37,858 bases of DNA from contig CASDSD010000019.1 in NCBI GenBank assembly GCA_949283205.1, positions 1 through 37,858 on the forward strand, read 5' to 3'. Origin of the DNA: an uncultured Alistipes sp. Lineage in GTDB: Bacteria; Bacteroidota; Bacteroidia; Bacteroidales; Rikenellaceae. A program made the position numbers and the translations under genes. A model generated the notes under the pieces. That model saw nothing but the letters and a program-made list of their open reading frames with translations, was not told the DNA's origin and ran no database searches. This document shows, piece by piece, positions 3,231 to 19,601 of the stretch; position 1 is the stretch's first letter; every line of letters starts with the position of its first letter.

Positions 3231-5219
3231 ATGTATCTGAATCTGTTCCTGGCATTCGCGCTCCTCGCGGCCGTGATATTCGCAATCCCCGTGAGGTGGA
3301 AGGCATGGGCCGCAGCCGCCGCCGTCACCGCCGCAGCCGCAGCCGCCATATTCGTCGGGGCAAAGGTCCTCGCAACGGGGCAAACCGCCGAGATAGTCGC
3401 CATGCAAGGCCCGCTCTTCGGGCCCGAGGCAATCATTGTCGACCCCCTCTCGGCGCTCTTCCTCATAATCATTGCCATAACATCCGTCGCGGCGGCTCTC
3501 TACGCCTGCTCCTACATGAAGGGATACTACGGCAGGAAGTCCTCCGCTCAGTTCTCCATTCACTTCCTCTCGCTGGCCGCCCTCGTGCTGTCGATGATGA
3601 TGGTCGTAACCTCCAGCGGCGGATTCTCGTTCCTGCTGGGGTGGGAGCTCATGACAATAACCTCGTTCCTGCTCATCCTCTTCGACGCCCAGCGCCCCGA
3701 GGTGCTCCGCGCCGCCCTCACATACCTCATAATGATGCACGTGGGATTCGTCTTCCTCGTGGCGGGCTTCGCCGGCATCGACGCCGTATGCGGCACGGCA
3801 GGCTTCGACGCCCTCCCCTACTGCTACGCCTCGCGCCACACCCTCTCGCTCTTCGTCATATTCCTCATAGGCTTCGGCATGAAAGCCGGGCTCTTCCCCA
3901 TGCACGTGTGGCTCCCCGAGGCGCACCCCGCAGCCCCCTCCCACGTATCGGCCGTAATGTCGGGCGTGATGATCAAGACCGGCGTCTACGGCGTCATACG
4001 CGTCGCCGGCGCCATAACCGAGGTCGACCAGCTCCATACGGCCGGGATAATCCTCCTCGCCGCGGGCATCGTCACCGGATTGTGGGGCGCCGTGCAGGCC
4101 GCCGCCCAGAACGACGCCAAGCGCCTGCTCGCATACTCCAGCATGGAGAACGTCGGAATCATCTTCATCGCCCTGGGCGTGGCGGCCCTCGGCGCCGGCG
4201 CCGACGACCCCGTCGTCGCCTTCATAGCCCTCTGCGGCGCACTCCTCCACACGCTCAACCACTCGCTCTTCAAGTCGCTCCTCTACTTCGGCGCCGGAAA
4301 CCTATACTCGCAGATGCACACCACGCTGCTCGACCACTTCGGCGGCGCAGCCAAACGGATGCCCGTCACCGCGGCGCTATTCCTCCTGGCCGCAGCCGCC
4401 ATCTGCGCCCTGCCGCCCCTGAACGGCTTCGTCGGCGAGTTCCTCATATACCTCGGCATGCTCGACAGCGTCAGCAACGGCGTAAACGTACTCTATGCCG
4501 CGGGCGGCATCGTCGCCCTCGCCCTCATCGGCGGCATCGTCCTGCTCGCCTTCGCGAAGCTCTTCGGCGTGGTCTTCCTCGGCACGGCACGCCACCACAA
4601 GGCCGAACGGATAACCGAAGCGGACGGCCTGCGCCTCGCTTCGATGGCCATACCCGCCGCAGGAATAATCCTCGCGGGACTCCTGCCGCAGTACGTCGTG
4701 CGCGTGGCCGCCGCGGCCGCCGCGGAGTTCACCCCCGCAGCCGTATACCTGGTCGATGCCGACCTCGTGCCAACCCTCACGCGCGTATCGCTCACGGCGT
4801 GGCTCCTCATAATAGTCATCGCCCTGCTCTACACGGTCAAGGTGCGGGCACAGCGCCGCCGCATCGTATCCCACGGACCCACGTGGGGCTGCGGATTCAC
4901 CGCCCCCGACACCCGCATGCAATATACCGGCGAGTCGTTCGCCGAGGGGCTCGAGAGCCTCGCCTCGACATTCAACAGCGACATCGTCGAGGGCCGCGTC
5001 GTGGACAAGGGAGAGATCTTCCCGCCCGCGGTGCGGAACTACAACGTCCGCCACAAGGACCGCGTCGGACGCCTCTTCTCGGCATGGTGGATCGAGATGC
5101 TGCGCCTGATAAACCAGCGCATCATGCGCCTCAGGACGGGCAAGATAAACAACTACATATTCTTCGCCCTGATGTTCCTCGTGCTAATATTCATACTGTC
5201 ACTCCTCAACATAATATAA
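3231..5219 (+). CDS. Hydrogenase-4 component B-like / NuoL-family antiporter subunit of an Ehr-type complex
   Basis: Large polytopic membrane protein of 662 residues in the Mrp/NuoL antiporter family, most like HyfB/HycC of group 4 hydrogenases. It should form one ion-translocating channel. Channel features are present: the TM5 glutamate in LLGWELMTITSF, a lysine in the TM7-like segment SAVMSGVMIKTGVYG after HPAAPSHV, the LAYSSMENVG segment, LNHSLFKSLLYFGAGNL, and NGFVGEFLIYLG. The C-terminal part has the HyfB-specific soluble segment (PTWGCGF, MQYTGESF) followed by a last membrane helix. It is the first of six closely spaced genes (stop-to-start gaps of 4, 4, 4, 2 and 43 bp). The ATG at 3231 gives a hydrophobic first helix. 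No promoter was found just upstream, so read-through from rsmE is possible. Confidence 0.92.
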   Translation: MYLNLFLAFALLAAVIFAIPVRWKAWAAAAAVTAAAAAAIFVGAKVLATGQTAEIVAMQGPLFGPEAIIVDPLSALFLIIIAITSVAAALYACSYMKGYYGRKSSAQFSIHFLSLAALVLSMMMVVTSSGGFSFLLGWELMTITSFLLILFDAQRPEVLRAALTYLIMMHVGFVFLVAGFAGIDAVCGTAGFDALPYCYASRHTLSLFVIFLIGFGMKAGLFPMHVWLPEAHPAAPSHVSAVMSGVMIKTGVYGVIRVAGAITEVDQLHTAGIILLAAGIVTGLWGAVQAAAQNDAKRLLAYSSMENVGIIFIALGVAALGAGADDPVVAFIALCGALLHTLNHSLFKSLLYFGAGNLYSQMHTTLLDHFGGAAKRMPVTAALFLLAAAAICALPPLNGFVGEFLIYLGMLDSVSNGVNVLYAAGGIVALALIGGIVLLAFAKLFGVVFLGTARHHKAERITEADGLRLASMAIPAAGIILAGLLPQYVVRVAAAAAAEFTPAAVYLVDADLVPTLTRVSLTAWLLIIVIALLYTVKVRAQRRRIVSHGPTWGCGFTAPDTRMQYTGESFAEGLESLASTFNSDIVEGRVVDKGEIFPPAVRNYNVRHKDRVGRLFSAWWIEMLRLINQRIMRLRTGKINNYIFFALMFLVLIFILSLLNII

Positions 5220-5223
5220 GGCC

Positions 5224-6144
5224 ATGCTTCTGAAGACCCTGCTCAACACGCTGCTCATGGCGGCCGTCGCCATGGCGATCCCCGGCGTCATAACCCGTCT
5301 GCGCGCACGCCTCGCCGGACGGAAGGGCGCCTCCTTCTTCCAGCATCTGCGCGACGCCCGCCTGCTCGCCGCAAAGGGCGCCGTATATTCACATACCACG
5401 ACCGCCCTCTTCCGCATCGCCCCCGCCGTATATCTCGGCGCCGCCGCCGTGGCGATGCTCTTCGTCCCCGTGGCCGACCTCGAACCCCTCATATCGTTCG
5501 AGGGGGACATCGTATGCTTCGCATACACGCTGGCGCTCGCCCGCGCCGCCCTGATCCTCGCCGCAATGGATACCGGAAGCTCCTTCGAGGGCATGGGCGC
5601 CTCGCGCGAGGCCCTCTACGGCGCCCTCGCGGAGCCCGCCCTCATGGTGGGATTCGCAACCCTGGCCATGTTCTGCGGATACACCTCCTTCGCCGATATC
5701 TTCGCCGTCAGGCAGTCCTTCGACCTGCACCTGACGCTCGTCATGCTCCTGGCCGCATACCTCTTCCTGCGCATAACCTTCGTCGAGGCGGGGCGCATGC
5801 CCGTCGAGGACCCCCGCACGCACCTCGAACTTACAATGATACACGAGGTGATGTGTCTCGACTACAGCGGCATCGACCTGCTCATGATACGCCTCGGCGT
5901 ATGGCTCAAGACCGCCGCCTTCGCCATGATCGCCGCCGACGCCGTCGCCGCCGTCAGCTGCTTCAGGTGGTGGTTCGCCGCTCCCCTCGCGATACTCCTC
6001 ACGGGAGTGTCGGTCGCCGTGGTCGAGTCGACACAGGCCCGCAACAAACTCTCGCGCAACACCACATTCATGGTGACGCTCTCGGCCCTCGCCGCCCTCA
6101 TATTCTTCATCGGATACCTGCTCCAGCTCGACATAAACATCTGA
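5224..6144 (+). CDS. NuoH/HyfC-like membrane subunit (hydrogenase-4 component C family)
   Basis: Membrane protein of 306 residues related to HycD/HyfC and to NuoH of complex I, the subunit that joins the peripheral arm to the antiporter modules. Two conserved cytoplasmic signatures are readable: SSFEGMGASREALYG, corresponding to the GALRA loop of NuoH, and EAGRMPVEDPRTHLELTMIHE near residue 190, the charged loop typical of group 4 hydrogenases. About eight hydrophobic helices are apparent. The start codon lies 4 bases after the previous stop, so translational coupling is likely. The conserved loops argue that a quinone- or redox-module docking surface is still maintained, although the partner subunits have lost most metal ligands. 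Confidence 0.92.
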   Translation: MLLKTLLNTLLMAAVAMAIPGVITRLRARLAGRKGASFFQHLRDARLLAAKGAVYSHTTTALFRIAPAVYLGAAAVAMLFVPVADLEPLISFEGDIVCFAYTLALARAALILAAMDTGSSFEGMGASREALYGALAEPALMVGFATLAMFCGYTSFADIFAVRQSFDLHLTLVMLLAAYLFLRITFVEAGRMPVEDPRTHLELTMIHEVMCLDYSGIDLLMIRLGVWLKTAAFAMIAADAVAAVSCFRWWFAAPLAILLTGVSVAVVESTQARNKLSRNTTFMVTLSALAALIFFIGYLLQLDINI

Positions 6145-6148
6145 CGCC

Positions 6149-6778
6149 ATGCTGCTATCGCTCATAATACTCTACGTCATAACGCTCATCTATCTCTCGA
6201 TAGTGGAGCGTTTCCGCAACTACGCCTCCATCATCGCATTCCAGGGGTGGATCCTCCTCGGCATAGCCCTGCTGCGCCTCCACTCGCTCGACTGGGTCGA
6301 ACTCTCGTTCGTGATCCTCGAGACCCTCATATTCAAGGCCGTGATCGTCCCCGCAATCCTCATGCGCGTCATCCGCAAGACCAAGATCAACCGCGTGCGC
6401 AAGTCCGGCTCGTCGCAGTTCAACGCCCTGCTGCTCTCGGTGGCGGCCCTCGCCGCCAGCGCCCTGGCCACCTACTACGTCGCCGACTCCTCCATACACA
6501 TGATATTCTTCGGCGTGGCCCTCTACGCCCTGCTCAGCGGACTCATACTCATAGTGCTGCGCTCGCGCATCTTCACCCACGTGGTGGGATTCCTCGTCAT
6601 CGAGAACGGCGTCTTCCTCTTCTCGATGGCCATCGGCGTCGAGATGCCAATACTCATCAACACCGCCATCCTGCTCGACATCCTCATCTCGGTGCTCATG
6701 CTCGGGCTCTTCATGACAAAGGTCGACGACAAGATACACTCCGTCGACAGCGAGTCGCTCACCCACGTAAAGGACTGA
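6149..6778 (+). CDS. Hydrogenase-4 component E-like membrane subunit (HyfE/NuoK-like)
   Basis: Small polytopic protein of 209 residues, all helices with short basic loops, of the HyfE family, whose C-terminal half resembles NuoK. The NuoK-like part shows GFLVIENGVFLFSMAIGVEMP, containing the buried glutamate of NuoK helix 2 (the E of IENG), and continues LLDILISVLMLGLFMTKVDD. HyfE normally sits between the HyfC-like and HyfF-like subunits and carries part of the proton path. It is 4 bp from its neighbours on both sides. The assignment rests on this pattern, the length and the position in the operon. Confidence 0.88.
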   Translation: MLLSLIILYVITLIYLSIVERFRNYASIIAFQGWILLGIALLRLHSLDWVELSFVILETLIFKAVIVPAILMRVIRKTKINRVRKSGSSQFNALLLSVAALAASALATYYVADSSIHMIFFGVALYALLSGLILIVLRSRIFTHVVGFLVIENGVFLFSMAIGVEMPILINTAILLDILISVLMLGLFMTKVDDKIHSVDSESLTHVKD

Positions 6779-6782
6779 TACA

Positions 6783-8186
6783 ATGATATACATCTTCTTC
6801 GCCCTATGGACAGCCACCGCCGCCGCGACGCTCTTCGCCCGCAGCCGCCGCACGGTGCATCTCTTCTGCTCGATGTACTTCGCGCTGCACGCCGCCTTCG
6901 CCGCCACACTCTTCGCCGGAGGCCTCTACGGCACCTCGTCCGGCGCCTTCTTCTCGTTCGACGCCGCCGGCACGCTCTTCTACGTGCTCATGGCCGTGGT
7001 GGCGGCATTCGTCGCCCTCCACTCGGAGCGCTACCTCAAGGATGACGACATAAAGACATACAGGCTCTATTTCGCCCTGCTCATGCTCCTCACGACGGCC
7101 ATAACAGGCGTCTACTTCGCCGACAACATCGCCGTGACGTGGATCCTGATGGAGGCAACGACCCTCTGCGCCGCAGGCATAATATACCACCGCCGCTCGG
7201 AGGCCTCGCTCGAGGCAACGTGGAAATACCTCTTCGTCTGCTCAACGGGCATCGCAATAGCATACCTCGGCATCCTGCTCCTGAGCGCCGCCGCACGCAA
7301 CGAGTCGCTCGACTACGCCTCCCTGCCCGCGCTCATCGCCGACGGAAACCCCCTATACCTCAAGACCGCATTCCTGCTCATACTCACGGGCTACAGCTGC
7401 AAGATGGAGATATTCCCCCTCTACACCATCGGCGTGGACGCCAACTTCGCCGCACCGGCGCCCGCCTCCGCCCTCATATCCACGGGCCTCGTGAATGCCG
7501 GGTTCCTCGCAATATTCCGCATCTACCGTCTCTTCGCCGCCACGGAGGTCTTCGACTGGGTGCGACACGTCATGGTCATAATAGGCGTGCTGAGCCTCGC
7601 CGTGGGAGCCCTCTTCCTGCGCCGCACAAACAACTACAAGCGCTTCCTGTCGTACTCCACCGTCGAGAACATGGGTATCGCCGCCATAGGCCTCGGCGTG
7701 GGCGGCCTCGGCGTCTGGGCCGCGATCCTGCACGTCACCTGCCACACCCTCATCAAGAGCAGCCTCTTCCTGCAGATGGCCGTCGTCCGCCAGATATACA
7801 ACGGATACCGCATAAACCGCATCGGCGACTACATCAACATCAACCGCATCGGAGCCATAGGCATGATCGGCGGCATGGTCGCCGTGCTGGCATTCCCGCC
7901 CTCGCCCCTCTTCGTGTCGGAGGTGATGATACTCTCGCAGACGATCCTCGACGGCGCGTGGTGGCTCGCCGCCGACATCGTGCTGCTCCTCTGCATCGTG
8001 ATATACTCGATATGCTACCGCGTGATCAAGATGTGCTACCAGCCCAACCAGGACGAACTGCACCTCTCGAAGATCGACTCGCGCCTCTCGTACAGCGCCC
8101 TCACGCTCCTCTGCGCCGCCCTCGTCATAGGGTTCTGGCAGCCCGAGCCCCTGCGCCGCATTATTGACCTGATAGCAAACATGTAA
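6783..8186 (+). CDS. Hydrogenase-4 component F-like / NuoN-family antiporter subunit
   Basis: Second Mrp-type antiporter subunit, 467 residues with about 13-14 helices, closest to HyfF/NuoN. Conserved features include TWILMEATTLCAAGIIYHRRS with the TM5 glutamate, SLEATWKYLFVCSTGIAIAYLG, the lysine in TGYSCKMEIFPLYTIGVDANFAAPAPASALIS, FLSYSTVENMGIAAIGLG, and CHTLIKSSLFL. A NuoM/HyfD-like third antiporter is not present in the operon, so the complex appears to have two antiporter-type channels plus the HyfC/HyfE pathway. The gene starts 4 bp after the preceding stop and ends 2 bp before the large-subunit gene. Confidence 0.9.
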   Translation: MIYIFFALWTATAAATLFARSRRTVHLFCSMYFALHAAFAATLFAGGLYGTSSGAFFSFDAAGTLFYVLMAVVAAFVALHSERYLKDDDIKTYRLYFALLMLLTTAITGVYFADNIAVTWILMEATTLCAAGIIYHRRSEASLEATWKYLFVCSTGIAIAYLGILLLSAAARNESLDYASLPALIADGNPLYLKTAFLLILTGYSCKMEIFPLYTIGVDANFAAPAPASALISTGLVNAGFLAIFRIYRLFAATEVFDWVRHVMVIIGVLSLAVGALFLRRTNNYKRFLSYSTVENMGIAAIGLGVGGLGVWAAILHVTCHTLIKSSLFLQMAVVRQIYNGYRINRIGDYININRIGAIGMIGGMVAVLAFPPSPLFVSEVMILSQTILDGAWWLAADIVLLLCIVIYSICYRVIKMCYQPNQDELHLSKIDSRLSYSALTLLCAALVIGFWQPEPLRRIIDLIANM

Positions 8187-8188
8187 CC

Positions 8189-9706
8189 ATGGCCCGATAC
8201 ATCACCATAGACAACATGTCGCCGGCAGTGCCGCTCGACACCATCCCCGAAGAGCCATACGACGATCTCTTCAACGACCTGGCCGACCGCCTCGCCCTCG
8301 AGCATTGCCACATGGCGCACTACTTCGCCCGCGCGGAGGGAGACCGCCTGCGCTTCTACGTCATCCTGCTCGACGACAAGGCCCGCACCATCATGATAAG
8401 CTCCTTCGCCATGGGCTACCACGACGAGGAGCCACTGCCCTCGCTCACGGCGCTGCGCCCCGCCATGCACCCCTTCGAGCGCGACATCACGGAACGCTAC
8501 GGCGTGCGCTTCGACGCCATGCCCTGGGACAAGCCCCTGCGTCTGCCCTTCGACCGCCGCGACCGCCGCACCAATGTCGGCAACTACCCCTTCTACACCA
8601 TCGAGGGCGACTCGCTCCACGAGGTGAACGTCGGCCCCATACATGCCGGCATCATCGAGCCCGGCGCCTTCCGCTTCATCTGCAACGGCGAGACGGTGCT
8701 CCACCTCGAGATAGCCCTCGGATACCAGCACCGCGGCATCGAGAGCCTCTTCGTCGCCACGGACAACCGCCTGCGCCAGGCCACCCTCGCCGAGACCATA
8801 GCCGGGGACTCCGCCGTGGCAAACGCCACGGCATATGCCGAGGCCGTGGAGAAGCTCGCAGGGCACACCCCGTCGGAGTGCCTCGTGCGCGAGCGCGCCG
8901 CGGCCCTCGAGCTCGAGCGCATGGCCATGCACATAGCCGACACGGGCGCCCTCTCGATGGATGTGGGGTACCAGCTGGGGCAGGTGGCATGCGAGGCCCT
9001 GCGCACCATGACCATAAACACCACGCAGGCGTGGTGCGGCAACCGCTTCGCCAAGGGGCTCATACGCCCCTTCGGCACCAACAAACCCCTCACCGTCGAG
9101 AAGAGGGATATGATACGCCGCAACGTGGCCGAGATCGTGCGCCGCTACGACGAGGTGCGGCACGACATAAAGAGCTCGCCCACGCTGCTGGCACGCTACG
9201 AGCAGTGCGGCGTGGTGCCGCGCGCCGAGATGCTGCGCATCGGCGGCGTGGGCATGGCGGCGCGCGCCAGCGGCGTGGAGCGCGACATCCGCACGTCGCA
9301 CCCCTCGGGGATATTCGCACGGCAGATCGCCCACGAGAGCATCGTCAAGCGCCACGGCGACGTCATGGCCCGTCTGATGATGCGCTGCCGCGAGGTGCTG
9401 CAGTCGGCCGAATACGTAGACCGCATCCTCGCCGGGCACACGCCCGACACGGCGATGCCGCGCCCCGACTACGAACGTCCCCTGGCGCCGGACGCCCTCG
9501 CCGTGAGCCTCGTCGAGGCGTGGCGCGGGGAGCTCTGCCATGTCGCCGTGACAGACGCCGCGGGCCGCATCGCCGACTACCGTATCAAGGACCCGAGCCT
9601 CCACAACTGGCTCGCCCTGGCGCTGGCGGTGCGCGGCGAGGGCATCTCCGACTTCCCGATATGCAACAAGAGTTTCAACCTGTCGTACTGCGGCCACGAC
9701 CTGTGA
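8189..9706 (+). CDS. Hydrogenase-like large subunit (NuoC-NuoD fusion type) lacking both NiFe CxxC motifs
   Basis: Soluble 505-residue protein in the HycE/HyfG/Nqo4-5 family. Residues 1-135 resemble the NuoC/30-kDa domain (HPFERDITERYGVRF), and from about 140 the NuoD/large-subunit domain follows (HEVNVGPIHAGIIEPGAFRF, LHLEIALGYQHRGIE). In true group 4 hydrogenases an RVCGICGFAH motif follows; here residues 203-212 read TIAGDSAVAN, so the two cysteines are Ala205 and Ser208. At the C-terminus the DPCxxC motif is replaced by DFPICNKSFNLSYCGHDL (488-505), which has two cysteines nine residues apart and no CxxC. The protein therefore cannot bind an ordinary NiFe centre. This fits Ehr-type complexes; its substrate is unknown. 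Confidence 0.9.
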   Translation: MARYITIDNMSPAVPLDTIPEEPYDDLFNDLADRLALEHCHMAHYFARAEGDRLRFYVILLDDKARTIMISSFAMGYHDEEPLPSLTALRPAMHPFERDITERYGVRFDAMPWDKPLRLPFDRRDRRTNVGNYPFYTIEGDSLHEVNVGPIHAGIIEPGAFRFICNGETVLHLEIALGYQHRGIESLFVATDNRLRQATLAETIAGDSAVANATAYAEAVEKLAGHTPSECLVRERAAALELERMAMHIADTGALSMDVGYQLGQVACEALRTMTINTTQAWCGNRFAKGLIRPFGTNKPLTVEKRDMIRRNVAEIVRRYDEVRHDIKSSPTLLARYEQCGVVPRAEMLRIGGVGMAARASGVERDIRTSHPSGIFARQIAHESIVKRHGDVMARLMMRCREVLQSAEYVDRILAGHTPDTAMPRPDYERPLAPDALAVSLVEAWRGELCHVAVTDAAGRIADYRIKDPSLHNWLALALAVRGEGISDFPICNKSFNLSYCGHDL

Positions 9707-9749
9707 CGCGCGGCACGAGGCGACAGGAAACAGATAACAGATACAAGAG

Positions 9750-10511
9750 ATGATAATACCCAAGATAAAGGTTCTGCGCAGCCACGGCACGCAATACATC
9801 CCCGACCTGACGAAGGTGACCCTCACCGACGAGTTCCGCGGGCGTCCCGAACTGACCGCCACGGACGACATGTCGGACGTCGCCGCCGCAGCCGCACTAT
9901 GCCCCACGCGGGCCATCACCGCGGCGCCCTTCACGCTCGACCTCGGGCGCTGTCTCTTCTGCGGCGAGTGCGCCCTGCGCGCACCCCGCAACATACGTTT
10001 CACGAACGACTACCGCATCGGCTCCGCCGCACGCGAGAGCCTCGTCGTGCGCCCCGGCGACAGCGCCATAGACTTCCGCCACGACACCGTCCGCCCCGAG
10101 ATACCGCGTCTCTTCGGCCATGCGCTCAAGCTGCGCCAGGTGTCGGCCGGCGGCGACGCCTCCAACGAGATGGAGCTAAACGCCACGGGCAACGTCAACT
10201 TCGACTTCGGCCGCTACGGCGTCGAGTTCACCGCCTCGCCCCGCCACGCCGACGGCATAGTCATAACGGGCCCCGTGTCGCAGAACATGTCCGCCGCCCT
10301 CGAGATATGTTACGACGCCGTGCCCGATCCCAAGATCGTCATCGCCTGCGGCGCCGACGCCTGCTCCGGCGGCCTCTTCGCCGGGAGCCGCGCCGTGGAC
10401 CGCACCTTCTTCGAGCGGCACCGCGTCGACCTGTGGCTCCCGGGAGCACCCGCACACCCCATGATCTTCATCGAGGGGGTCATGAACCTCGTCGGCAGGA
10501 TACGGCGATAA
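9750..10511 (+). CDS. Ferredoxin-like domain fused to NuoB/HyfI-like small subunit with degenerate cluster sites
   Basis: 253-residue fusion. Residues 40-85 are a half-emptied 2[4Fe-4S] ferredoxin domain: the first motif keeps only the terminal CP cysteine (Cys51, in LCPTRAI), and the second keeps CLFCGEC (68, 71, 74) but has RAP instead of CP. In bacterial ferredoxins those four cysteines ligate the same cluster, so one complete [4Fe-4S] site should remain. Residues 125-253 are NuoB/HycG-like (RYGVEFTASPRHADGIVITGPV, VPDPKIVIACGADACSGGLF), but the four proximal-cluster ligands are replaced by Asp136, Asn139, Asp203 and Ala233 (PGAPA for PGCPP). Three non-canonical cysteines (187, 200, 205) remain. 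Last gene of the operon; a terminator follows at 10550. The family call is firm; the metal content is inferred. Confidence 0.85.
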   Translation: MIIPKIKVLRSHGTQYIPDLTKVTLTDEFRGRPELTATDDMSDVAAAAALCPTRAITAAPFTLDLGRCLFCGECALRAPRNIRFTNDYRIGSAARESLVVRPGDSAIDFRHDTVRPEIPRLFGHALKLRQVSAGGDASNEMELNATGNVNFDFGRYGVEFTASPRHADGIVITGPVSQNMSAALEICYDAVPDPKIVIACGADACSGGLFAGSRAVDRTFFERHRVDLWLPGAPAHPMIFIEGVMNLVGRIRR

Positions 10512-10650: not shown

Positions 10651-10857
10651 AAAAAACATGTTTGCAACTTTTGGTGGCAAAAGTTGCGCAAAACCATCCG
10701 CAAGGCGTTCTCGCGGGGCCTCAAGCCGCAGCGGCGGAATCGGACGCAAAGCGCTTTTACTTCGTGAAAAGGTCTCCGATTCTCTTCGCCGCCGCGACCC
10801 TCCGCCTTCTTCCGCTGCGAACGCAATGCGGAACCGCTGTAAAACGCTCCGCGTTTT
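10651..10857 (+). repeat. Dispersed intergenic repeat, copy A (about 205 bp)
   Basis: Nearly identical over about 200 bp to 18891-19088, with a few substitutions. It begins with a hairpin (GCAACTTTTG, loop GTGG, CAAAAGTTGC at 10664-10687), continues through AAACCATCCGCAAGGCGTTC and a TTTTACTTCGTGAAAAGG block, and ends at AAACGCTCCGCG. A related start unit (TTGCGACCTTTGGCGGC, then GGATTTTTCTTC) lies just upstream at 10612-10643. No terminal inverted repeats or target duplications were seen. Confidence 0.85.
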
Positions 10858-11148: not shown

Positions 11149-11229
11149 AAAAGAATTTTTATTGTGGGATAATTTTACTGCCAAAAAGGTATCAAAAAAC
11201 TCTTTTTCCTTTCCCCGAAAAGATGGATT

Positions 11230-11315
11230 TATGCAACTTTTGGTGGCAAAAGTTGCGCAAAACCATCCGCAAGGCGTTCTCGCGGGGCCTCAAGCCGCTG
11301 CGGCGGAAGCGGGCG
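11230..11315 (+). repeat. Dispersed intergenic repeat, copy C (truncated, about 85 bp)
   Basis: Direct copy of the first part of copy A, including the hairpin (11233-11256) and the AAACCATCCGCAAGGCGTTC block. It diverges after the CGGCGGAAG segment, so the second half is missing. Confidence 0.85.
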
Positions 11316-11370
11316 GGACGCGCGATGGCTTCGCCCAAACGAGAAAAAGAGACGTGACAAAAGCGACAGA

Positions 11371-11405
11371 CAAAAACTCCCTGCCGCATGTTTAGCGGCA
11401 GGGAG
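11371..11405 (-). terminator. Intrinsic terminator of the GH20 gene
   Basis: On the minus strand an 11-bp perfect GC-rich stem (11405-11395 with 11387-11377) with a 7-base loop is followed by TTTTT (complement of 11376-11372). It sits 37 bases past the stop codon at 11442. Confidence 0.92.
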
Positions 11406-11441
11406 CTGTATCCCGATTCCGGAAATCCCTCCCGGAGGCAG

Positions 11442-13766: not shown

Positions 13767-14019
13767 GTGTAAAAAGTTTACGATACCGGCACGCGCCATC
13801 TCCCGACGCCCGATGCCGCCCCCTCCCCTTCGGAAGGCCGGGCATGCGCACCGTCGTCCGCGTGCACCGTACGGCCGTGCCGTAATCGTACGGAACCCGC
13901 TTGTAACGTGGTAAATGTAATAAAAATCGCGCGCAGAAACAAATCCGCCACCCAATTTCCGCACGGCCCTTCAACCCCGCGCCGCAGACACGCCGACTGC
14001 CCCGTTTTTTATATTTTTT
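13767..14019. other. Intergenic spacer between GH20 gene and promoter repeat
   Basis: No gene seen. On the minus strand TACATTTA (complement of 13912-13919) misses the TAnnTTTG consensus at its last base and could be a weak -7 element for the GH20 gene with a leader of about 140 bases; support is thin. Confidence 0.4.
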
Positions 14020-14181
14020 GGCTGCGCCTTGGACAGGCTGCGCCTCGGCATAAAAAATCAAGCAAGCTTGTTTTTTCTGCCCTCGACTTTCGCTATCTTT
14101 GGCTTCGCCTTAGACAGGAGGCGCCTCGGCATAAAAAATCAAGCAAGCTTGTTTTTTCTGCCCTCGGCTTTCGCTATCTTT
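14020..14181 (+). repeat. Two tandem 81-bp promoter-bearing repeats
   Basis: 14020-14100 and 14101-14181 are direct copies of one 81-bp unit differing at about six positions. Each has GCGCCTCGGCATAAAAAATC, then a short stem (CAAG, loop CAAG, CTTG, flanked by A and T runs), and each ends in CTTTCGCTATCTTT. The duplication therefore doubles a -7 promoter element ahead of the metallophosphoesterase gene. Confidence 0.92.
14094..14101 (+). promoter_or_regulatory. -7 element in first 81-bp repeat
   Basis: TATCTTTG fits TAnnTTTG. It would give a leader of about 100 bases that runs through the second repeat unit and its hairpin. Confidence 0.5.
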
Positions 14182-18588: not shown

Positions 18589-19601
18589 AGTCACGCGCTC
18601 CAAATATCGGCCTCCCGAACCCGCGAAATGCCCTTTTACAGGGGCGAAACGACCCGCCCCCGCCGGTAAGTTTCTTACTGTCATGAGCCAAACCCGACTC
18701 CTTTCATGCCAACCGGAATGAAACGCCGGGGTGCGGAGCCCCCGACTTATGCCAATTTCTGCGGCGTGGATTTTTCTTCCCTCAAAAGATTTTTGCGACT
18801 TTCGGTTGCCGGGATTCTTTTCTTCTTTCCCCCGAAAAACATGTTTGCAACTTTTGGTGGCGTGGATTTTTCTCCCACCCCCAAAATATGTATGCAACTT
18901 TTGGCGGCAAAAGTTACGCAAAACCATCCGCAAGGCGTTCTCGCGGGGCCTCACGCCGCGCCGGCGGAATCGGACGCAAAGCGCTTTTACTTCGTGAAAA
19001 GGTCTCCGATTCTCTTCGCCGCCGCGGCACTCCGCCTTCTTCCGCTGCGAACGCAATGCGGAACCGCTGTAAAACGCTCCGCGTTTTATGGATATATAAA
19101 AGAAACAGGCGGGAATCTCACGATTGCCGCCTGCCCTCGGAACACAGAGTTCCATAAACTACTAACCCAAACTTAAATAAATGAAGAAACCTCGCTGCGA
19201 CACTGCTTGACGTGCCGCAGTTGTCTTTTACAATCACAAAACGTATGCCGCAACGACTCAATTATGTCGGCACATCATCCTTTGGCCCTTTTGGGACATC
19301 ATTGCACCCATACGGGACAAATCATCCGCGCCGCAACGCCCTGCGCCTCGCACAATGCCGGCAATGTCACGTGCATCTGCCACGCCCGAATGCCTCCGGA
19401 GCTCCGTGGAGGTCCGCGCAGCAGGACCTTGCAAGTGACGGGAATCGTTACGCGTCCACCTCCCGAAAGGGCCGCGGGACACATCCGCCCGCAGGCCTCC
19501 GGGGATCTCCGACGGCGTCTCCCGCACCCCGGGAAAAGCCCTCGCACGGCGCCGCCCGCCACATTATCGTCCCCCTATTGCGCGAATTGGCGAAGTTTTA
19601 C
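18589..19601. other. Gene-free region with dispersed repeats
   Basis: About 1 kb without a convincing gene. It holds repeat copy B (18891-19088), shorter iterations of its start unit at about 18775-18872 (GGATTTTTCT, then GCAACTTTTGGTGGC), and just after copy B a hairpin at 19107-19132 (11-bp arms with one G-G mismatch, loop TCAC) and a small palindrome at 19139-19153. The stretch 19155-19590 shows nothing I recognise; open frames there have no protein-like composition or start context. Confidence 0.65.
18891..19088 (+). repeat. Dispersed intergenic repeat, copy B (about 198 bp)
   Basis: Direct copy of 10660-10857. The hairpin at its start keeps both 8-base arms (AACTTTTG and CAAAAGTT), while the loop changes from GTGG to GCGG; the outer two pairs are interrupted by a G-to-A change. 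The rest differs at only a handful of positions, including the run AAACGCTCCGCG at the end. Confidence 0.88.

Follow-up and report, generated by a model that had tools for sequence, protein, structure and literature searches.

A maintained energy-converting hydrogenase-related operon of Alistipes with no recognisable electron path to its predicted cavity

Energy-converting hydrogenase-related (Ehr) complexes, reportedly defined by Marreiros in 2013 and by Coppi in 2005, are the described systems to which we compare a six-gene operon at positions 3231-10511 (+ strand) of a stretch of DNA from an uncultured Alistipes sp. (assembly GCA_949283205.1, contig CASDSD010000019.1, positions 1 to 37,858; this whole stretch of 37,858 nucleotides is referred to here as the window). 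The retrieved excerpts of three papers describe Ehr complexes as lacking the NiFe ligands and call their function unknown (PMC12342949, PMC10284858, PMC4378227). Excerpts of other papers state that Ehr likely cannot interact with H2 (PMC7304191), propose a complex of formate dehydrogenase with Ehr and place the ferredoxin:NADP+ oxidoreductase Mbx of Pyrococcus among the hydrogenase-related complexes (PMC6349859), and mention a similar complex in Nitrospira (PMC12542776). In the excerpts of the literature searched, a set that lies outside the founding Ehr papers, we found no description of an Ehr complex that has lost the proximal [4Fe-4S] cluster (N2).

Ehr proper and the window operon are alike in having a large subunit without NiFe ligands and antiporter-like membrane subunits; in the window, however, the N2 site and the first ferredoxin cluster are gone as well, whereas all four N2 cysteines are intact in 69 of the 192 Ehr small subunits that we compared. 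The subunits of Escherichia coli formate hydrogenlyase (7z0s) and hydrogenase 4 are homologous to those of the window, which differs in lacking a NiFe site, an N2 site, and a nearby formate dehydrogenase, and in having a ferredoxin-fused small subunit. MbhJ of Mbh (6cfw) is the best match of the window small subunit in both sequence and fold, but MbhJ has four cluster cysteines and the window protein has none of these four. Respiratory complex I (Nuo) has NuoB, NuoCD, NuoH, and antiporter relatives in common with the operon, which has neither the NADH module nor the N2 site. Mrp cation/proton antiporters, as far as the excerpts of PMC7419157 describe them, share the antiporter-type subunits and possibly an electron-free ion exchange, but Ehr keeps NuoH-, NuoCD-, and NuoB-like subunits; the operon differs from the Mrp arrangement, which consists of the Mrp gene set without a peripheral arm.

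The operon consists of six open reading frames (ORFs) on one strand, with all frames intact and with intergenic gaps, 5' to 3', of 4, 4, 4, 2, and 43 nt. We assigned families with Pfam and NCBIfam; the NCBIfam matches (hydrogenase-4 subunits B, E, and F) all fall under the models' own cut-offs. The genes and the former and remaining metal sites, all on the + strand, are:

3231-5219, +: HyfB-like antiporter subunit, 662 amino acids (Proton_antipo_M, E=1.7e-51; hydrogenase 4 subunit B, E=3e-145, under the model's cut-off)
5224-6144, +: HyfC/NuoH-like membrane subunit, 306 amino acids (NADHdh, E=9.9e-22)
6149-6778, +: HyfE-like membrane subunit, 209 amino acids (no match in Pfam; hydrogenase 4 membrane subunit NF008556, E=7e-13)
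6783-8186, +: HyfF-like antiporter subunit, 467 amino acids (Proton_antipo_M, E=8.8e-34)
8189-9706, +: HyfG/NuoCD-like large subunit, 505 amino acids (Complex1_49kDa/30kDa; all four NiFe cysteines gone)
8801-8803, 8810-8812, 9683-9685, and 9692-9694, +: codons of the former NiFe cysteines in the large subunit, now A205, S208, S499, and G502
9750-10511, +: ferredoxin-NuoB fusion small subunit, 253 amino acids (Oxidored_q6; best fold match MbhJ)
9900-9971, +: remaining [4Fe-4S] ligands C51, C68, C71, and C74 (four Cys in 190/190 small subunits with the domain)
10155-10166, +: D136 and N139 in place of N2 ligands 1 and 2; S138 lies between them
10356-10358, +: D203 in place of N2 ligand 3
10446-10448, +: A233 in place of N2 ligand 4 (Asn in 101/120 of the proteins called acid type below)

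The gene order B-C-E-F-G-small subunit is of the Hyf type and, with its antiporter-like subunits, corresponds to Ehr. Because the same order recurs at many loci of several phyla, the operon is not a chance product. Gene order, absent NiFe ligands, and tree placement identify the predicted six-gene product as an Ehr complex, a known kind without NiFe ligands. This agrees with an earlier reading of the window made without database searches (the sequence-only reading), which had called the complex Ehr-type.

The same reading held that the complex cannot be a [NiFe] hydrogenase, and the large subunit agrees: all four NiFe cysteines are replaced, and the two CxxC motifs that define group 4 [NiFe] hydrogenases are absent. 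We read A205, S208, and S499 from an alignment to subunit 5 of formate hydrogenlyase and G502 by extension beyond the end of that alignment. The absence extends to the family, with no Cys at NiFe positions 2, 3, and 4 in any of 178 aligned large subunits and Cys at position 1 in only seven of them. Families of formate dehydrogenase, Hyp proteins, and maturation proteases, which the sequence-only reading had reported missing nearby, are likewise missing from the 18 other window ORFs that we scanned (17 plus 1, a subset of the ORFs in the window).

To compare small subunits, we collected 220 matches of >150 bits from the loci in hand (numbered here with the prefix L), which gave 192 distinct proteins; the sample is biased, as 80 of at least 580 relatives were taken and approximately 70 of 89 matching order-level genomes were fetched. 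The NuoB-like domain of the window lacks the four cysteines that would hold N2, and its proximal ligands have thus been lost, as had been noticed from the window alone. It is one of 120 among the 192 small subunits in which the N2 cysteines are not kept, a class that we refer to as acid type. Position 1 is Asp or Glu in all 120, position 3 is Asp or Glu in 119 (the exception is L261), position 4 is Asn in most (count given above), and position 2 is variable, with Cys in 80. The four-residue patterns are DCDN (76 proteins), DADN (8), DVEA (6), DNDN (5), DIEA (5), DVDA (3), DTDN (3), DGDN (2), and 12 singletons; the window has DNDA. Three small subunits fall outside both classes: NEEW in L090, a Planctomycetales metagenome-assembled genome (MAG), SEEW in L201, from the genome sample taken around an Opitutaceae MAG, and CACW in L102, the Opitutaceae MAG. 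Glu at position 3 accompanies Ala or Thr at position 4 in 13 of 18 proteins and Asn at position 4 in 1 of 101; this pairing is weak evidence of compensation, because it occurs mostly within one genus. An origin of the acid state as a sequencing artefact is rejected, since it is common to many genomes.

One iron-sulfur site is left in the complex, as predicted, and it lies in the ferredoxin domain. The sequence-only reading took the fusion of ferredoxin and NuoB-like domains for an extreme form of Ehr; we rejected this, because 190 of the 192 small subunits are fused, which makes fusion the Ehr norm. The two proteins without the domain, in the reading frame taken, are L023 and L270, the latter near a contig end. 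The first ferredoxin motif is complete, giving two clusters, in 44 of the 69 N2-bearing proteins, incomplete in the other 25, and complete in none of the 120 acid-type proteins. Some N2-bearing proteins have a single ferredoxin cluster (L078, L091, and L120 are examples). The motif is present in L124, L227, L265, and L267, which among N2-bearing proteins are the closest sisters to the acid clade, so that in the lineage of the window the loss of the ferredoxin cluster and that of N2 may have been close in time; a loss order of NiFe, ferredoxin, N2 is a reading of these states rather than a dated series. Gene arrangement varies at some loci: in L023 (G036) the small-subunit gene (7228-7758, no ferredoxin domain, N2 positions DCDD, long branch) stands first in the Ehr operon, in L271 of a same-genus genome (G007 C11 50324-51079) it lies on a different contig from the other five genes, and in L025 (11715-12812) the large- and small-subunit genes are separated by an unrelated gene that by eye resembles a pectinesterase gene.

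We built trees of the small subunit (90 rows, N2 columns removed, 36 of the 120 acid-type proteins included) and the large subunit (88 rows); both come from quick searches and have many weak branches. In the small-subunit tree, all acid rows except L023 (35 rows) form one clade with a support of 91 in the Shimodaira-Hasegawa-like approximate likelihood-ratio test (SH-aLRT), adjoining L265/L267, L124, and L227, and five changes of N2 state are needed in all. The long branch of L023, which is unfused and has DCDD, emerges near the root, and the N2 change of L023 may be separate from that of the main acid clade. The large-subunit tree needs seven changes and places the N2-bearing L227 inside the acid rows, but a tree constrained to a single acid clade is not significantly worse by the approximately unbiased (AU) test (p-AU 0.158). 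The same test on the large subunit rejects L090 with L201 as one clade (p-AU 0.0002) and L090 with L102 (p-AU 0.00003). Since L090 and L201 are apart, either their Glu-Glu-Trp sites arose separately or the small subunit alone was transferred. In the large-subunit tree, built without published Ehr reference sequences, the window protein groups with Ehr-like large subunits of other phyla, apart from two Ech-type outgroup rows. As judged from these trees, the N2 loss is a derived state, centred on a Bacteroidales clade inside N2-bearing Ehr and recurring elsewhere; the sequence-only reading saw the loss of the ligands correctly but missed this setting.

Ehr-like large subunits are spread over many phyla, in MAGs and in other genomes, and the gene order around them is often the same. 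Among the matches listed, the nearest named relative is an Alistipes sp. SUG166 MAG (85% identity in G, 89% in the small subunit), and within the genus the large subunit is present in 15 of 24 other genomes at 61 to 73% identity. Beyond the genus the distribution is patchy: small-subunit matches (E <= 1e-40) came from 89 of 393 genomes at the order level, 16 of 395 at the class level, and 6 of 177 in the sample around the Opitutaceae MAG. The acid type comes mostly from Bacteroidales-order genomes; a few MAGs under other names that carry it (Phycisphaerae L050, Flavobacteriales L060, and Lutibacter L065 and L068) may reflect transfer or misbinning. Intact N2 sites were found in three of the fetched order-level genomes (L227, L265, and L267). 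Two operon variants appeared in the survey: a Verrucomicrobia MAG (L117, 8734-18913) has two Ehr operons in tandem, the second of which groups with L192, apart from the rest, and HyfB-like genes stand in adjacent pairs in many operons (L051, L054, L059, L060, L062, L063, L065, and others).

The membrane arm keeps its charged residues in nearly all acid-type rows, in line with the sequence-only reading. In the HyfB-like subunit, E139, K218, H232, K249, K297, E306, H340, H344, K348, and E403 are kept in 62/62 acid-type rows; in the HyfC/NuoH-like subunit, E129, E137, E188, R191, H200, E202, H207, E208, K229, and E268 are kept in 63/63, scored by charge class or His; in the HyfE-like subunit, E152, D177, and K63 are kept in 64/64; and in the HyfF-like subunit, E124, E144, K148, K207, D219, E295, and K325 are kept in 70/70. 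The operon thus has the charged NuoH-like and antiporter-like residues that characterize the ion-translocating arm of the complex I superfamily. We also asked how many of the columns that N2-bearing Ehr conserve at >=95% are conserved at the same level in the acid type. This holds for 56 of 66 columns in B, 40 of 47 in C, 8 of 12 in E, 86 of 97 in G, where the NuoD-like cavity is mostly conserved, and 32 of 45 in the small subunit, where four of the 13 lost columns are the N2 ligands and clade-specific changes besides these are few. Nonsynonymous to synonymous rate ratios (dN/dS, NG86) range from 0.09 (E) to 0.24 (G) across the six genes for the window against L042, the only pair quoted because dS is saturated or not computable in many others. 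These patterns indicate that the six genes are under purifying selection.

The operon is predicted to encode a maintained machine of the complex I family in which no electron path to the cavity can be recognised: the NiFe, N2, and first ferredoxin sites are gone, and no cluster would lie between the remaining one and the cavity. By complex I geometry, this gap would be about 20 Å or more. The usual wire would then bring no electrons to the NuoD-like cavity, and ions would be translocated without electron delivery there. Our preferred reading, held tentatively and at somewhat less than even confidence, is a distinct N2-less Bacteroidales Ehr type in which ion translocation would be gated or docked via the remaining cluster. 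The peripheral arm would clamp the antiporter-like subunits conformationally, and the single cluster would sense redox state or dock a ferredoxin partner, thereby gating an exchange of Na+ or K+ against H+; ion, driving force, and gating are guesses. At the vacated N2 site, the carboxylates D136 and D203 would supply the negative charge that left with the cluster, or bind a cation, which would keep the coupling interface working. More loosely, we entertain the possibility that this is a natural complex I-family machine whose arm-to-channel coupling does without electron transfer to the cavity, the [4Fe-4S] cluster having been replaced more than once by a charge-keeping carboxylate pair while conformational coupling survived.

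The near-invariant acids at positions 1 and 3, beside a variable position 2, support this reading, and the Glu-Glu-Trp sites of L090 and L201, placed apart, count in favor of it. So do the kept columns and charged membrane residues together with the low dN/dS, as well as the lack of a widely linked dehydrogenase (none was shared widely when neighbors within 5 kb of the operons were clustered) and the presence of a separate Nuo and two Nqr/Rnf-type proteins in the window's own genome. A further point is a gene for a protein assigned, by Pfam on three examples, as HTH_17-PTS_EIIA_2. Among N2-bearing loci, it is present within or beside the operon in 23 of the 41 whose flanks are long enough and immediately precedes the operon in 13 of 31; L090 and L102 have it too. 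Such EIIA proteins regulate K+ transport elsewhere.

Several observations weigh against the preferred reading. The remaining cluster is invariant, beyond the needs of a plain antiporter, and the inclusion of Mbx among hydrogenase-related complexes means that redox work without NiFe is known. In L102, two N2 cysteines are gone but no acids have taken their place, the window's genus has Ala or Thr at position 4, and the HyfF-like subunit is less conserved (23 of 40 columns), with changes at 214, 216, and 218, of which those at 216 and 218 are common to the N2-bearing sisters L265 and L267. An AlphaFold2 model of the small subunit from a 34-row alignment has a confident fold (mean predicted local distance difference test score, pLDDT, 89.4; best fold match 6cfw_J, template modelling score 0.81 by target length), but block means fall to 66 and 49 over residues 131-150, which hold D136 and N139, and residues 143-147 are <50, which counts against a rigid new site. 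The HTH_17-PTS_EIIA_2 gene was found at 0 of 70 acid-type loci; to our knowledge, Bacteroidales generally lack the phosphotransferase system (PTS), so this absence may mean little. Finally, the large subunit was not found in 9 of the 24 same-genus genomes, and five of these nine, searched again with a small-subunit profile, lacked that subunit too, so the complex is accessory and dispensable.

A redox-driven pump, the main rival, which we consider rather unlikely, would have ferredoxin reduce the single cluster and electrons pass to an acceptor bound nearby or through a mononuclear metal at D136, S138, and D203 (and N233 where present). The invariance of the cluster and the conserved cavity speak for such a pump, and the D-x-S ... 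D ... N arrangement could bind a hard metal ion; Mbx and the proposed complex of formate dehydrogenase with Ehr, both from the excerpts of PMC6349859, offer precedents. Yet N233 is lost in this genus, D203 swaps with Glu, D-x-S is not kept in L090 and L201, and no partner oxidoreductase gene is widely linked. It is improbable that N2 is still present, held by Asp, Cys or Ser, Asp, and Asn: Asp and Ser can ligate Fe-S clusters and position 2 is often Cys, but 40 of the 120 acid-type proteins have another residue there, in many cases Ala, Val, Gly, or Ile, position 4 is Ala in the window, and Trp occupies a ligand position in L090, L201, and L102. A role as assembly factor or regulatory scaffold, with neither pumping nor electron transfer, would suit a group whose function the excerpts cited at the outset call unknown (PMC12342949, PMC10284858, PMC4378227), but we think it quite improbable, given that charged residues are retained in nearly all rows by the NuoH-like subunit and by the two subunits of antiporter type. 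A decaying group 4 hydrogenase, for which the stepwise loss of ligands among relatives might speak, is rejected as highly implausible, because frames are intact in dozens of genomes, dN/dS is low, the entire aligned family lacks the NiFe site, and the residues replacing the ligands are themselves conserved; the sequence-only reading had named homologues with intact ligands and relaxed selection as the signs of such decay, and neither appeared.

A central open question of complex I concerns the link between electron transfer near N2 and the pumping of ions far from it, and a natural lineage that lacks N2 but keeps the coupling residues is a ready-made test of it. If the N2-less complex moves ions, coupling needs no electrons at N2; if it is still redox active, the chemistry is new. 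The N2-less type, whose carriers include gut Bacteroidales, also shows what the widespread Ehr complexes can do without.

The neighbors within 5 kb of the clustered operons are mostly housekeeping genes (RsmE, peptidase M3, and others). A flavin/2Fe-2S reductase-like gene near three loci (one checked) and, at three acid-type loci, a nearby membrane pyrophosphatase-like gene (one of them examined with Pfam) are too few to build on. Examples of the HTH_17-PTS_EIIA_2 gene are found in L071 (528-1214), L078 (3278-3982), and L090 (509-1992), which has two copies; the His motif that we looked for is present in 13 of 16 proteins of the first cluster, and one such protein used as a query had no match in the window's own genome. 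In the window, the operon is preceded by rsmE and followed by a family 20 glycoside hydrolase gene on the opposite strand, and 17 other ORFs belong to housekeeping or unrelated families, apart from one without a match.

Two repeats were observed in the window. An intergenic, dispersed repeat of 205 nt occurs at 10653-10857, 11222-11426, and 18883-19087, the later copies being 96% and 63% identical to the first; it holds a 44-nt inverted repeat, and a 35-mer within it occurs three times in the window compared to none in 100 shuffles. At 14017-14178, on the 5' side of a metallophosphoesterase ORF, are two tandem 81-nt copies (94% identical), and the true start of this gene is probably further inside the ORF.

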